From Oscillospiraceae bacterium (GTDB lineage Bacteria; Bacillota; Clostridia; Oscillospirales; Oscillospiraceae), in the NCBI GenBank assembly GCA_015068325.1, contig SVKQ01000004.1, forward strand, positions 1 to 64,000: a DNA stretch of 64,000 nucleotides. Reading direction: 5' to 3'. The notes beneath the pieces were generated by a model. It saw only the letters and a list, made by a program, of their open reading frames with translations, was not told the origin of the DNA and searched no databases. A program made the translations under genes and the position numbers. Of the stretch, positions 37,408-42,913 are shown piece after piece (positions within the stretch are counted from its first letter, which is position 1; every line of letters starts with the position of its first letter).

Positions 37408-38108
37408 GCCGACTGCACACACTATTGGAGCGCGCCCGGGAGGGCGACGAGATGGCCTGCCGGACCGCGCTGGAGGAGAATGAGGGCCTCATCTGGTCCG
37501 TGGTGCGGCGCTACATTGGCTGCGGCGTGGAGACAGATGATCTCTATCAACTGGCTTGTATAGGATTTATCAAAGCAGTAAAGTGTTTTGACTTTACATA
37601 TGGGACGCAGTTTTCCACATATGCCGTGCCCAAAATTGCCGGTGAGATCCGTCGCTATCTGCGGGACGATCAGGTTATCAAGGTGGGTCGCACCACCCGG
37701 GAAAAGGGGCAGACGCTCTGGCGGGTGCGGGAAAGGCTGCGGGGTACGCTGGGCCGTGAAGCCCGCCTGTCGGAGCTGGCGGAGGTTTCCGGCATGACGG
37801 TGGAGGAGATCGCCCTTATCGAACTGGCCACAGCCGCACCGGAGTCTCTCCAGCAGGAGACTGCCGACGGACTGACATTGGAATCCACACTGGGTACAGA
37901 GGGACCGGAGGAGCTGCTGGTGGAAAAGCTGGCGCTCCGGGAGGCTGTGGAGAGCCTGCCGGAGCGCGAGAAGTGGATTATACTGCTGCGCTTTTTCAAG
38001 GGTCTCACCCAAAACCAGACAGCCCGGATTATCGGGGTGTCCCAGGTGCAGGTATCCCGTCTGGAGCGCCGGAGTTTGGAAAGACTGCGGTCGATCCTGG
38101 GGGAATAG
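37404..38108 (+). CDS. sigF: RNA polymerase sporulation sigma factor sigma-F
   Basis: Encodes 234 aa. First forespore-specific sigma factor. Region 2: LIWSVVRRYIGCGVETDDLYQLACIGFIKAVKCFDFTYGTQFSTYAVPKI; region 4: LTQNQTARIIGVSQVQVSRLERRSLERLRS. The start overlaps spoIIAB by 4 nt. The last 80 nt overlap, tail to tail, the convergent TIGR03915 gene, and there is no terminator between them. Confidence 0.95.
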   Translation: MSRLHTLLERAREGDEMACRTALEENEGLIWSVVRRYIGCGVETDDLYQLACIGFIKAVKCFDFTYGTQFSTYAVPKIAGEIRRYLRDDQVIKVGRTTREKGQTLWRVRERLRGTLGREARLSELAEVSGMTVEEIALIELATAAPESLQQETADGLTLESTLGTEGPEELLVEKLALREAVESLPEREKWIILLRFFKGLTQNQTARIIGVSQVQVSRLERRSLERLRSILGE

Positions 38109-38871
38109 TGGCCTGCCGCGCCTCATAATCGGTGGGCAGGAATTCCGTCATCACACCGCGGTAGCGCTTGGGGAGGAAGGAGTTCTGGCAACGGGGATTG
38201 GTCCGCTCCTGGATGGCGATGGTGTCATAGAAGCGTTTCCATAGCTCCCGGTAACAGAGCTCCTCCTGACCCGGCAGCGTGAGCTGCAGTCGGTCCACCG
38301 GCAGGATGCGGGAGCGTCCTGCCGTGTGGAGCAGCAGCTCCCGGTGGTTGCGGTCGTAGATGAAGAAGGATTCGTTGGCATAGCGATTGCAGAAATGGCT
38401 GCGCAGCAGAGGCAGCACCCGGTTTTTCGGCTTGATCTCCGCGCCCAGCACGCCGCCGTAGTCAGAGAAACGGATGAAGCCCCGCAGCTTTTCCAGCTCG
38501 CCGTTCATGTGGCGAATGGCTCTGGCCAGGGGGTAGTAGGTCGGGTCGGACCGGTTTTTCATAAAGTCGGACCCCTGGGCGTAGAGCTTGCGGACAAAGG
38601 CATACAGATGCTGCTCCCGGTCCTCCATACAGGTGAGAAAGGCCCGGCGCAGTACATCCACTGCCGGCTCCGAGCGGGTCAGCAGGCTCCGCATCACCCG
38701 CCGGGCATGCTCTCGCTGGGTGATGACACAGCGCACCTCATAGAGGGAAAAGTATTCCTCATCGCCGCAAAAGGCGATGGGGAATTCTCTGTTGACGTAG
38801 CTCTCATAGACGCAGCAGAGAAAGCCGTCAAATGTGCCGTCATATTGATAGATCGTCTCTTGCCATGCCAT
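38029..38871 (-). CDS. TIGR03915-family putative DNA-repair partner protein
   Basis: Encodes 280 aa. Start AWQETIYQYDGTFDGFLCCVYESY, plus DPTYYPLARAIRHMNGELEKLRGFIRF and HFCNRYANESFFIYDRNHRELLLH, match the family that always accompanies the TIGR03916 radical SAM protein and is described as a putative DNA metabolism protein. No biochemical role is known to me. ATG 38871 (GGGGTGA 6 nt upstream) is chosen over GTG 38880. The last ~25 codons (after VMTEFLP) are Pro/Gly-rich and read antisense to the end of sigF, probably a tail grown into the neighbour. It overlaps the radical SAM stop region on its 5' side (stop at 38877, start 38871, 5-nt gap). Confidence 0.8.
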   Translation of the reverse strand: MAWQETIYQYDGTFDGFLCCVYESYVNREFPIAFCGDEEYFSLYEVRCVITQREHARRVMRSLLTRSEPAVDVLRRAFLTCMEDREQHLYAFVRKLYAQGSDFMKNRSDPTYYPLARAIRHMNGELEKLRGFIRFSDYGGVLGAEIKPKNRVLPLLRSHFCNRYANESFFIYDRNHRELLLHTAGRSRILPVDRLQLTLPGQEELCYRELWKRFYDTIAIQERTNPRCQNSFLPKRYRGVMTEFLPTDYEARQATIPPGSTAVFPNSGAPDGIPAPGTPR

Positions 38872-38876
38872 AGCCG

Positions 38877-40148
38877 TCACCCCGCGTTGTCAAAAAGGGA
38901 CAACTGCACCGGCGTGCCGTCGGCCGGCAGTTCGCCCCGCCCGATGCTCTCCAGCTGGTTTGCCAGTGTGGCCGCCGAAAAGCGCAGACCGCTGCGTATC
39001 CGCCCGCCGCAGGTGGTAAAAAACTGTGCCCGCTTGACCACGACGCCCAGCTTTTTCAGGTCCTCATAGGTCAGATGCGCCATCCGTCTGGCTGATACGA
39101 TCCGCCGTGCGCTGACCGGCCCGATGCCGGGCACCCGCAACAGCGTCTCGTAATCCGCCCGCATGATCTCGACAGGGAATTGCTCCAGATGGTTGAGCGC
39201 CCAGTGGCACTTGGGATCAATCAGCGGGTTGAAATCCGGCTGCGCCTCCGTCAGTAGCTCCTCTGCCCGGAAGCCGTAGAAACGCAGCAGCCAGTCCGCC
39301 TGATAGAGGCGGTGCTCCCGCAGCAGGGGCGGCTTGGTGCTTGGGGCAGGAAGGAGGCTGTGTTCCACCACCGGCACATAAGCGGAGTAGAACACCCGCT
39401 TGAGCCGGTAGCGCTCGTAGAGGGACTCCGTCAGGTGGAGGATGTGCCGGTCGCTGTCTTCCGTGGCGCCGACGATCAGCTGTGTGCTCTGTCCGGCGGG
39501 GGCGAAGGAGGGGGCGTGTCTGTATTTCACCAGCTCCGCCTTGCTTTGGGCTGCCCGGTCCCGAATTTGCCCCATGGGCCGCAGGATGGCGGCCTTGTTC
39601 TTGTCCGGCGCCAGCGTCTGCAGTCCTGCCTCTGACGGCAGCTCGATGTTGACGCTGAGCCGGTCGGCCAGCAGCCCCAGCTGATAGACCAGCTCCGGCG
39701 ATGTGCCGGGAATGGCCTTGGCATGGATGTAGCCGTTGAAGGCATAGTCCTGCCGCAGGATGCGCAAACAGCGGACCATCTGCTCGGTGGTGTAGTCCGG
39801 ACTGCGCAGCACGCCGGAGGAGAGGAACAGCCCCTCGATATAGTTGCGCCGGTAGAAGCCGATGGTCAGTTCCGCCAGCTCCCGCGGCGTGAACGCAGCG
39901 CGCCGCGTGTCGTTGGAGCGGCGGTTGACGCAGTACTTGCAGTCGTACACGCAGCTGTTGGTCATTAGTACCTTCAGCAGCGTGATACACCGCCCATCAG
40001 CGGAGAAGCTGTGGCAGCATCCGGCGATGGAGGAAGAGGTGTTGCCGATCTTCCCGGGCTGGAAACCCCGCCTGACACCGCTGGAGGTGCAGGCCGCGTC
40101 GTACTTGGCCGCGTCGGACAGGATCGTCAGTTTCTCCAGCAGGTCCAT
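38877..40148 (-). CDS. TIGR03916-family putative DNA modification/repair radical SAM protein
   Basis: Encodes 423 aa. Radical SAM enzyme: C66-x3-C70-x2-C73 in SCVYDCKYC, preceded by further Cys (AAC20, AGCC44) that could bind a second cluster. A helix-hairpin-helix in the C-terminal third (LLRVPGIGPVSARRIVSAR) suggests DNA binding. The extreme C-terminus has QLSLF (residues 415-419), a canonical sliding-clamp-binding pentapeptide. The substrate is unknown. Partner gene TIGR03915 lies 5 nt downstream; a 38-aa membrane peptide lies 9 bp upstream. The promoter carries LexA-like boxes. Confidence 0.88.
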   Translation of the reverse strand: MDLLEKLTILSDAAKYDAACTSSGVRRGFQPGKIGNTSSSIAGCCHSFSADGRCITLLKVLMTNSCVYDCKYCVNRRSNDTRRAAFTPRELAELTIGFYRRNYIEGLFLSSGVLRSPDYTTEQMVRCLRILRQDYAFNGYIHAKAIPGTSPELVYQLGLLADRLSVNIELPSEAGLQTLAPDKNKAAILRPMGQIRDRAAQSKAELVKYRHAPSFAPAGQSTQLIVGATEDSDRHILHLTESLYERYRLKRVFYSAYVPVVEHSLLPAPSTKPPLLREHRLYQADWLLRFYGFRAEELLTEAQPDFNPLIDPKCHWALNHLEQFPVEIMRADYETLLRVPGIGPVSARRIVSARRMAHLTYEDLKKLGVVVKRAQFFTTCGGRIRSGLRFSAATLANQLESIGRGELPADGTPVQLSLFDNAG

Positions 40149-40157
40149 AGTGGCCTG

Positions 40158-40274
40158 TCAGGCGGCGCGGCGCCGGCCGTGCCGGGGCTGGTCGATCCGG
40201 TCAATCAGATGCATCAGGTGCACGGCAATAGAGCCGGCGCCCAGGATCACAATGATGTAGCTCATAGTAGTCAT
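40158..40274 (-). CDS. 38-residue single-pass membrane peptide heading the repair operon
   Basis: ATG 40274 (or the internal ATG 40265) encodes MTTMSYIIVILGAGSIAV, a hydrophobic helix of ~17 residues, then HLMHLIDRIDQ and a basic tail RHGRRRAA. The ribosome site is weak (CGGGGGC). It is the first ORF after the LexA-flanked promoter and ends 9 bp before the radical SAM start. SOS-induced mini-membrane proteins such as YneA and Caulobacter SidA block division, which suggests a role, but there is no sequence similarity I can claim. It could also be a non-functional leader ORF. Confidence 0.5.
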   Translation of the reverse strand: MTTMSYIIVILGAGSIAVHLMHLIDRIDQPRHGRRRAA

Positions 40275-40290: not shown

Positions 40291-40361
40291 AAAACATTTG
40301 TTCTATCAGCATTGTAAATCGAACAAATGTTTTTGTCAATAGAAAATCGAACAAATTTTCG
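40291..40361. promoter_or_regulatory. three LexA (DinR)-like operator boxes
   Basis: Compared with the Bacillus box CGAACRNRYGTTYG: box 1 on the minus strand, AGAACAAATGTTTT (40304-40291, 12 of 14); box 2 CGAACAAATGTTTT (40320-40333, 13 of 14); box 3 CGAACAAATTTTCG (40348-40361, 13 of 14). Starts are spaced 29 and 28 bp. Box 2 fills the -35/-10 spacer of the minus promoter, box 1 covers its start point, box 3 lies just upstream of its -35. Confidence 0.8.
40311..40339 (-). promoter_or_regulatory. sigma-A promoter of the predicted repair operon
   Basis: On the minus strand, perfect -35 TTGACA (40339-40334), 17-bp spacer, -10 TACAAT (40316-40311). Confidence 0.8.
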
Positions 40362-40380: not shown

Positions 40381-40409
40381 TTGACCGGCAGAGCAAACTG
40401 TATTAAAAT
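40381..40409 (+). promoter_or_regulatory. sigma-A promoter of the helicase gene
   Basis: TTGACC (40381-40386), 17-bp spacer, TAAAAT (40404-40409). The nearest LexA box ends 19 bp upstream of the -35. Confidence 0.7.
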
Positions 40410-40444: not shown

Positions 40445-42913
40445 ATGAGCGATTTGGAGAAGAGATTTCTGGCAGCGCGGCGCCGCGCTATCGCCGCGGA
40501 TTACCGCCATCTGAACGAGCGGCAGATAGAAGGCGTACTGGCCACGGAGGGACCGCTGCTGCTGCTGGCCGGTGCCGGCAGCGGCAAGACCACGGTGCTG
40601 ATCAACCGCGTGGCCAATCTGCTGCGGTACGGCCGCGGCAGCGACAGCGATGAGATCCCGCTACCCGTATCGGAGGACGAGGTGGAATTTCTGGAGCAGT
40701 ACGCCCTCCAGCCCACGGAGAGTCAGCGTCCGCTGGCACAGTACCTCTGCGCTGTGGAACCGGCGCGCCCCTGGGAGGTGCTGGCCATCACCTTCACCAA
40801 CAAGGCCGCCAATGAGCTGAAGGAGCGCCTGGAGAAAATGCTGGGGGAGGACGCCCGGGACGTGTGGGCTGCCACCTTCCACTCGGCCTGCGTGCGCATC
40901 CTGCGGCGCGATATCGACAAGCTGGGCTTCTCCCGGGACTTCACCATCTATGACACAGACGACAGCCGGCGCGTCATCCGGGACGTCCTCAAGGAACTGG
41001 GCCTGGAGGAGAAGACCTTTCCCATTCGCGAGGTACTGTCGGTCATCTCCAATGCCAAGGATGCCATGCTCGACCCGGAGAACTTCATCCACAAGTGGGA
41101 GGGGAACGGCGATTGGCGTAAAATCAGAATCGGTAAAGTATATGCGCTTTACAATAAGAGACTGCGGGATGCCAATGCGCTGGACTTCGACGATATCATC
41201 CTCCACACGGTCCGCCTGCTGCAGACCAACGCAGAGAGCCGGGAATACTACCAGCGCAAGTTCCGCTACGTGCTCATCGACGAGTATCAGGACACCAACC
41301 ACCTGCAGTATCTGCTGGCCAGCCTGCTGGCGGGTGGCTGCCGCAACATCTGCGTGGTGGGCGACGACGACCAGAGCATTTACCGTTTCCGCGGTGCCAA
41401 TATCGAGAATATCCTGAACTTTGAAAAGGAATTCCGCGGCGCCCGCACCATCCGCCTGGAGCAGAATTACCGCTCTACTCAGCACATTCTGGACGCGGCC
41501 AACGCCGTGATCCGCCACAACGTGGGCCGCAAGGGCAAGACGCTGTGGACAGAAAACGGCAGCGGGGAGCGGGTGCTGATCCGCACTACCTTCAACGAGA
41601 GCGACGAGGCCAACTTCGTGGTGGGCCAAATCATGATGGGATACAACCGCGGCGGCAGCTGGCGGGATCACGCCGTGCTCTACCGCATGAACGCCCAGTC
41701 CAACGCGCTGGAATATGCCTTCAAGCGCAATGGCGTACCCTACAAGGTAGTGGGCGGCATGAAGTTCTTCGACCGGGCCGAGGTCAAGGACATGCTGTCC
41801 TACCTCTGTGTCATCAACAACCCCTCGGACGACCTGCGCCTGCGCCGCATCGTCAATGTGCCATCCCGCAAAATCGGCGAGATCACTGTGGACAGGGCCC
41901 AGCAGCTGGCCACGCGGGACGGTGTGTCCCTCTACGCGGTGTTCCGCCGGGCCTCTGAATACCCGGAACTAAAGAATTCAGCCGGCAAGCTGATGGCCTT
42001 TACAGACATTGTGGAGGAAATGCGCAGCCGTGTCGGCACGATGGAACTGGTATCCTTCTACAGCTATGTCTGTGACCGGACCGGGTATGTGCAGGCTCTG
42101 ATGGACAAGAACGACCTGGAGAGTCGTAGCCGTATTGAAAACGTGCAGGAGTTGGCCTCCAGTATCCTGGGTTTTCTGGAAAATGAGCCGGAAAACCCCA
42201 CCCTGGCCGGCTTCCTGGACGAGGTGGCGCTCTACACCGATCTGGACGAGACCAACGACAGCGATAACACCGTGACGTTGATGACCATGCATGCGGCCAA
42301 GGGTCTGGAGTTCCCCTGCGTCTACGTGGTGGGTATGGAGGACGGGCTCTTCCCCGGCAACCGCGCCATGGGCGACGAGGAGGAGATGGAGGAGGAGCGC
42401 CGCCTGTGCTATGTGGCCATGACGCGGGCCAAGGAGAAGCTGACCCTGACCAACGCCCGCCAGCGGACGCTCTTCGGCCGAACCACGCCCTGCATGCCAT
42501 CCCGCTTCTTAGCGGAGATCCCGGAGGGTGACATGGAGTGGATCGGAAAGCCGGAGCTCCGCCCGACCCGTCGGGAGTGGGACGGTGGTTGGGATGACGC
42601 CTTTGGCTATGGAGAGAGCTTCCATAGTCGTCCGGTCGAGCGCAGCGACGACGGGGATACTCCCCATATCCCGAGACAGGAGACGTACCGCCAGCGCGGC
42701 ACCTCTGCGGCGCTTCACCGGGGTGGAGGCGGCGGTATTCCGCTGCTGCAGCTACAGCCCGGCGACAGCGTGTCCCACAGCGCCTTCGGGCAGGGCATGG
42801 TGCTGAGCGTGCGGCCCATGGGTGGCGACGCCCTCGTGGAGGTGGCCTTTGACCAGGTGGGCACCAAGAAGCTGATGCTGAAGGCGGCAGGGCAGCACCT
42901 GAAAAAGTTGTGA
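40445..42913 (+). CDS. pcrA: UvrD/PcrA-type ATP-dependent DNA helicase
   Basis: Encodes 822 aa. SF1A helicase. Q-motif LNERQIEGV, motif I LLLLAGAGSGKTT, motif Ia LAITFTNKAANELKERL, motif II VLIDEYQDTN, motif III VVGDDDQSIYRFRGA, motif IV LEQNYRST, motif V VTLMTMHAAKGLEF, motif VI YVAMTRAKEKLTL. Between motifs I and Ia there is an acidic insertion of ~43 residues (about 64-106) absent from Bacillus PcrA, which explains part of the extra length (family ~720-750). The C-terminus has the usual GDSVSHSAFGQGMVLSV RNA-polymerase-contacting Tudor-like segment. Confidence 0.93.
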   Translation: MSDLEKRFLAARRRAIAADYRHLNERQIEGVLATEGPLLLLAGAGSGKTTVLINRVANLLRYGRGSDSDEIPLPVSEDEVEFLEQYALQPTESQRPLAQYLCAVEPARPWEVLAITFTNKAANELKERLEKMLGEDARDVWAATFHSACVRILRRDIDKLGFSRDFTIYDTDDSRRVIRDVLKELGLEEKTFPIREVLSVISNAKDAMLDPENFIHKWEGNGDWRKIRIGKVYALYNKRLRDANALDFDDIILHTVRLLQTNAESREYYQRKFRYVLIDEYQDTNHLQYLLASLLAGGCRNICVVGDDDQSIYRFRGANIENILNFEKEFRGARTIRLEQNYRSTQHILDAANAVIRHNVGRKGKTLWTENGSGERVLIRTTFNESDEANFVVGQIMMGYNRGGSWRDHAVLYRMNAQSNALEYAFKRNGVPYKVVGGMKFFDRAEVKDMLSYLCVINNPSDDLRLRRIVNVPSRKIGEITVDRAQQLATRDGVSLYAVFRRASEYPELKNSAGKLMAFTDIVEEMRSRVGTMELVSFYSYVCDRTGYVQALMDKNDLESRSRIENVQELASSILGFLENEPENPTLAGFLDEVALYTDLDETNDSDNTVTLMTMHAAKGLEFPCVYVVGMEDGLFPGNRAMGDEEEMEEERRLCYVAMTRAKEKLTLTNARQRTLFGRTTPCMPSRFLAEIPEGDMEWIGKPELRPTRREWDGGWDDAFGYGESFHSRPVERSDDGDTPHIPRQETYRQRGTSAALHRGGGGGIPLLQLQPGDSVSHSAFGQGMVLSVRPMGGDALVEVAFDQVGTKKLMLKAAGQHLKKL

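Follow-up and report, generated by a model that had tools for sequence, protein, structure and literature searches.

The 71-bp stretch at positions 40291 to 40361 of the window, by which we mean the whole 64,000-nucleotide stretch of Oscillospiraceae DNA that was analysed, appears to be a three-site LexA operator at the predicted promoter of a probable three-gene operon. A probability of about 0.85 may be attached to this reading, which, like the view that the unit is likely switched on by DNA damage, draws on sequence and its conservation. The original prediction had assigned the promoter to a TIGR03915/TIGR03916 gene pair; the pair probably does belong to the unit, but the transcript would begin with the gene of a small peptide. 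LexA control of such a pair is prior art and not new, as the CAC3343-CAC3344 genes of Clostridium acetobutylicum were predicted to form a LexA operon in 2013 from footprints and expression data (PMC3828012). These genes are equated with the pair in the window by product name and not by sequence, and the available part of that report mentions neither a triple operator nor a small membrane-peptide gene (PMC3828012).

The three boxes and the predicted promoter

The predicted promoter of the operon, TTGACA-17-TACAAT, occupies positions 40311 to 40339 of the minus strand and agrees with the consensus at 11 of 12 positions, its -35 element (TTGACA, 40339-40334) and -10 element (TACAAT, 40316-40311) being 17 nt apart. 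Box 1 (AGAACAAATGTTTT, 40291 to 40304, minus strand) has two mismatches to CGAACRNRYGTTYG and lies at the inferred transcription start, where it would span approximately +1 to +14 for a start about 7 nt past the -10 element. Box 2 (CGAACAAATGTTTT, 40320 to 40333, plus strand), with one mismatch, is wholly within the 17-nt spacer, and this overlap with the promoter is of the kind expected of a LexA operator. Box 3 (CGAACAAATTTTCG, 40348 to 40361, plus strand), also with one mismatch, begins 8 bp beyond the -35 element; one of its half-sites is imperfect, as it is in relatives too. The inverted half-sites of the Gram-positive GAACN4GTTC type of LexA operator were found in all three boxes, each of which has 7 of 8 half-site bases in an inverted GAAC/GTTC arrangement with the halves 4 bases apart (row L049). 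Matches of 13, 13 and 12 of 14 positions had been claimed and were recovered as 12, 13 and 13 for boxes 1 to 3, and the placement of the boxes around and inside a near-consensus promoter likewise agrees with what had been described.

The 11-mer GAACAAATGTT occurs in exactly three copies in the 1.96 Mb genome, namely in box 1, in box 2 and upstream of lexA (C14:158831-158841), so that the genome's own lexA is preceded by the same site. Simple abundance of the consensus tells a different story, and enrichment was rejected as a line of proof since counts were equal to, below or barely above those of controls. The window holds 10 matches with at most two mismatches against a shuffle mean of 14.2 (at least 10 matches in 88 of 100 shuffles), the genome holds 16 matches with at most one mismatch against 23 for the reversed control, and MGAACANNTGTT was found 7 times against 5 in its control. 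Sites in which 7 or all 8 half-site bases agree, however, arose at a mean of only 0.037 per base-shuffled region of 130 bp, and three in one such region were seen in none of 4800 base shuffles. What is not random is the cluster of boxes and their identity with the lexA site, and not the consensus count; the cluster and GAACAAATGTT exceed chance, the consensus as such does not.

Sites of the GAACN4GTTC type are also known from Clostridium difficile, whose LexA binds the recA operator in vitro (PMC4234289), and this operator has 13 of 14 bases in common with box 1. As far as the accessible part of that report describes it, the C. difficile system differs from the window, which has three sites at one promoter and belongs to a genus whose recA is without a recognisable site; the term 'radical SAM' is absent from the main text of the same paper (PMC4234289).

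Proposed mode of repression

The position of the boxes relative to the predicted promoter supports the LexA-type repression geometry that had been claimed. As long as the DNA is undamaged, LexA bound as dimers to box 2 (in the spacer) and box 1 (over the start) would keep RNA polymerase off the promoter, and box 3 would add LexA occupancy upstream; upon DNA damage, RecA-stimulated self-cleavage of LexA would release the promoter. It is less sure that the radical SAM protein, with its helix-hairpin-helix, and the TIGR03915 protein would then act together on damaged DNA, and that the small peptide would take part in this response at the membrane, the simplest possibility being a brake on division or growth.

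The start-to-start distances between neighbouring boxes are 29 and 28 bp, and cooperative binding had been read into this spacing. At 10.5 bp per turn, 28-29 bp makes about 2.7 turns of the helix; adjacent dimers would therefore not lie on a common face, and contact on the same face is not implied. The spacings in two-box loci elsewhere are different again (24-35 and 51-62 bp), and the cooperativity reading was set aside as unsupported by helical phase and by spacings that vary.

Conservation of the operator among relatives

Boxes upstream of TIGR03916 genes in relatives had been named as a means of checking the prediction, and they proved to be conserved. TIGR03916 was found in 43 of 60 relatives, 38 of them over the cut-off, and 30 loci were taken, from which 25 upstream regions were aligned (24 of the genus, including the window, and one of another genus of the family). 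The five unaligned loci comprise one at a contig edge (L042) and four at the level of the order, where one box was found in L022, two in L024 and none in L023 and L027. The operator is present in some form in all 25 aligned regions and, at a threshold of 7 of 8 half-site bases, three boxes are counted in 23 of the 24 genus operators and two in the remaining one.

The architecture is also uniform in 33 loci that were chosen for carrying the small ORF and are not a sample of all TIGR03916 operons. All 33 have TTGACA followed by a 17-nt spacer, the spacing of boxes is 28/29 in 23 of them, and the two spacings sum to 56-58 bp in every case. Box 2 lies within the spacer across these loci, being degraded in L034, and some boxes of L031, L099 and L180 have only 6 of 8 half-site bases. 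Such counts include the window's own locus where the genus is counted, and many loci are from close relatives and hence non-independent.

A wider scan, with a matrix built solely from the lexA boxes of the genus, recorded a box within 300 bp of TIGR03916 in 46 of 80 loci from named genomes, these being the best 80 matches listed, compared with 17 of 1600 first-order Markov-shuffled sequences and 23 of 1869 other windows from the same loci (plain base shuffles were used for the half-site counts). The best 80 loci listed come from Oscillospiraceae, Lachnospiraceae, Paenibacillus auburnensis, Desulfosporosinus acididurans and others. Among another 27 loci of the family, 17 had a box. At the matrix threshold no box was seen in 34 of the best 80 loci listed or in 10 of the 27, and the link between a LexA box and TIGR03916 is common, not universal. 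These observations bear on the suggestion that the three boxes are no more than chance matches in an AT-rich intergenic region, a suggestion that could appeal to a consensus that is over-represented neither in the window nor in the genome. There is next to no room for it given the conservation of box positions and half-sites over 33 loci, the shuffles described above and the contrast between the best 80 loci listed and controls in which boxes occur at about 1%.

LexA, RecA and a second LexA-like gene

The original prediction presupposed a LexA gene in the genome, and lexA and recA are both present: LexA scores 194.9 bits against a cut-off of 110.95 (gene at C14:158121-158762, minus strand) and RecA 557.4 bits against 325.3. 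A lexA match was found in 31 of the 32 genus genomes, over the cut-off in 30, and a box lies within 130 bp upstream of lexA in all 28 loci with a recognisable start among 30 examined, L080 and L089 being left out of the count as their starts were not found. The start of L089 (genome G015) was located in a separate check, and there is no box upstream of this lexA. G015, the sole genus genome with a readable lexA start but no box, is also without a TIGR03916 match.

Counted by half-sites, the genus has one box at lexA (28/28), three at the operon (23/24) and none at recA (26/27). At the matrix threshold, recA had no box in any of 27 readable loci (L219, L260-L287), in regions that cover the 360 bp upstream of an N-terminal motif, part of them coding, and in which a promoter lying farther away would go unseen; the recA counts exclude L283 and L286, in which the motif was not found, and L288, which was not examined. 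Barring transcription from a more distant promoter, recA of this genus appears to escape LexA control.

The genome also encodes a second LexA-like protein (L002/L245, G000:C11:135577-136155), which at 104.5 bits falls below the lexA cut-off. A related box, CAAACGGATGTTCG, is found in a promoter-like spacer just upstream of this gene, and recombinase-like genes, judged by eye, lie downstream. Could the three boxes be bound mainly by this repressor of contig C11 and not by the chromosomal LexA? The protein exists and a related box precedes its gene, yet that box is not the same as the three operator boxes, whose match is with the site upstream of lexA; most genomes of the genus have only one lexA match, and two or three boxes are still found in all 24 genus operators examined. 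It is very improbable that the second repressor is the main one, and LexA itself remains the preferred regulator of the operator.

Two further intergenic sites were noted in the genome. A box much like that of lexA (GCAACACTTGTTCG, matrix score 14.1; L018, G000:C19:73456-73466) is situated just upstream of a gene whose product starts MADKQKSC, possibly a further LexA target, and a site with a matrix score of 11.5 (CTAACATCTGTTCC; L010, G000:C11:104564-104574) lies upstream of a gene that by eye resembles a PrsW-type membrane protease.

The TIGR03916/TIGR03915 pair

The two larger genes of the predicted operon are assigned to their families by profile scores over the curated cut-offs. TIGR03916 (rSAM_link_UDG; 38877 to 40148, minus strand; 642.6 bits, cut-off 343.5) is a radical SAM protein with a helix-hairpin-helix, and its gene overlaps by 4 bp that of the TIGR03915 (SAM_7_link_chp)/DUF4130 protein (38029 to 38880, minus strand; 195.1 bits, cut-off 112.25), just after which a weak terminator-like hairpin of 5 pairs was found as a pattern match only (38015 to 38027, minus strand). 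TIGR03915 adjoins TIGR03916 in 108 of 110 loci. DUF4130 has been predicted to be a mutagenesis-related enzyme, with links both to SplB-like radical SAM proteins and to uracil-DNA glycosylases (PMC3765255); that study was a gene-neighbourhood analysis of the SOS response, in the available part of which LexA boxes on the pair are not mentioned (PMC3765255). Searches of the literature returned no match for TIGR03916 under its family name, none for UdgX together with radical SAM, and none that was related, as judged by title, for Oscillospiraceae with LexA.

Structural comparison adds a few details. The predicted structure of TIGR03916 (pLDDT 54) is too poor to use, and its profile has one short PDB match, to a ComEA-related protein, in the helix-hairpin-helix part. 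TIGR03915 has no sequence match in the PDB. Its predicted structure weakly resembles DHH phosphoesterases (RecJ, Cdc45, PAP phosphatase); TIGR03915 is not assigned to the DHH phosphoesterase superfamily, as an alignment of 24 sequences has no conserved DHH run. A repair role for the pair is suggested by its regulation, in the sense of guilt by association.

A predicted small membrane-peptide gene at the probable head of the operon

Between box 1 and TIGR03916 there is an overlooked ORF of 38 codons (40158 to 40274, minus strand), probably the first gene of the operon, which would encode a single-pass membrane peptide with an arginine-rich tail. All 25 aligned loci have a counterpart of 35-43 residues, and all 25 peptides have one hydrophobic stretch and a tail with a net charge of +2 to +6; the best 18-residue mean hydropathy ranges from 1.53 to 2.27 over the 25 sequences, and the short, single-stretch character of SOS peptides is found in them. 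Over 300 pairwise comparisons, which are not independent, mean pN was 0.316 and mean pS 0.570, with a pooled pN/pS of 0.554 in frame and of 1.012 and 1.460 in the other two frames. The small ORF is under purifying selection on its amino acids, in its own frame only.

Relatives of the peptide extend beyond the genus. Peptide matches were obtained in 6 of 120 genomes of the family (5 of 106 genera) and, in a larger draw, in 29 of 400 (6 of 106 genera), the sixth genus being represented by one weak match without TIGR03916 nearby. The ORF is also present in four other genera of the family. Fifteen loci from outside the genus were newly read, and 12 of them have the promoter and boxes 2 and 1 ahead of the peptide, with TIGR03916 after it; of the other three, L229 and L231 are at a contig edge and L243 is unlinked (no TIGR03916). 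Among the loci outside the genus, at least L232 and L237 have no evident box 3. The peptide has no family match in Pfam or PHROGs, and a relative of 43 residues matches 12 database proteins, none of them named. No relatives were found in phage records, and none of 27 pattern matches in viral contigs was confirmed.

An ORF that is so short, without a family match and preceded in the window by a weak ribosome site (GGGGGC, where most relatives have GGAGG), might be a non-coding leader or encode an attenuator-like leader peptide. This is unlikely, as the amino acids are conserved above silent sites in this frame only, all 25 peptides retain the hydrophobic stretch and the basic tail, and the ORF recurs across genera. 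A functional membrane peptide is thus the favoured interpretation, and by analogy with other SOS-induced single-pass peptides it may be a brake on division or growth, a tentative idea with the odds somewhat against it. The peptides DinQ (PMC3567139), YneA (PMC13396833) and SosA (PMC6851548) are SOS-induced in their own hosts, and the available parts of these sources describe DinQ and YneA as single-transmembrane, as the window peptide is predicted to be single-pass behind a predicted LexA operator. The likeness is one of description and not of sequence, and the window peptide, unlike these three, is co-encoded with a radical SAM repair-type pair.

The divergent helicase gene

A pcrA-like helicase gene (40445 to 42913, plus strand; TIGR01073 at 822.1 bits, below the cut-off of 911.2) is transcribed away from the operon, and an effect of the boxes on its promoter had been thought possible. 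The predicted pcrA promoter, TTGACC-17-TAAAAT (40381 to 40409, plus strand), is outside the operon and is conserved among the aligned relatives. That the boxes serve pcrA, or both genes equally, would accord with the divergent arrangement, with the fact that UvrD/PcrA-type helicases are SOS genes in some bacteria, and with locus L119, which has both a box and pcrA. However, the core promoter as predicted is clear of box 3, with its -35 element 19 bp beyond it, and loci in which no pcrA was found (L098, L101, L117) still have the operator. Moreover, only 28 of 110 loci have pcrA next to the operon, a much looser association than that of TIGR03915, and the operator thus travels with the operon, not with pcrA. 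A role of the boxes at pcrA is highly unlikely on this evidence; the pcrA-like gene is probably not LexA-controlled from these boxes, and the effect proposed for its promoter finds no support.

Unlinked copies or look-alikes in prophage-like regions

Several genomes have further copies of the peptide, relatives or look-alikes, in prophage-like early regions. In L246 and L247 the peptide match is near a LexA-like repressor gene and genes for phage replication initiation and DnaB-like proteins, in L249 it is near Sak- and RecE-like recombination genes, and in L182 (the place of L252), L253 and L254 it directly follows genes matching the end of phrog_434 (a RecE-like profile) and phrog_1956. L259 is a weak peptide match with an anti-repressor gene nearby, and in L250 the one gene tested had no phage match. 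No LexA box adjoins the ORF in any of the unlinked copies in prophage-like regions. Matches among short membrane peptides arise easily, and in L248 and L251 the match precedes an oxoamine-synthase-like gene (by eye) and then a dehydrogenase-like gene, a context which indicates that some of the hits may be no more than look-alikes.

A Kil-like reading of the peptide comes to mind because kil of phage lambda and kilR of the Rac prophage, both division inhibitors, are found near recombination genes. One could speculate that the peptide founds a new LexA-commanded family of single-pass peptides, a Kil-like brake on division or the membrane shared by Oscillospiraceae prophages, in their repressor/replication and RecE/Sak modules, and by a host SOS operon, in a genus whose SOS response dropped recA and became centred on lexA and the peptide/radical-SAM unit; this larger scenario is rather doubtful.

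Possible implications for the SOS response of the genus

Should recA indeed escape LexA control, the SOS circuit of this genus would depart from the textbook wiring. With three boxes, release of the unit could be tighter or later than that of lexA itself. The small ORF is a concrete, previously unlisted candidate SOS gene, testable by simple expression. TIGR03915 and TIGR03916 form a widespread pair, and the conservation of a LexA operator ahead of it suggests that its substrate should be sought after DNA damage.
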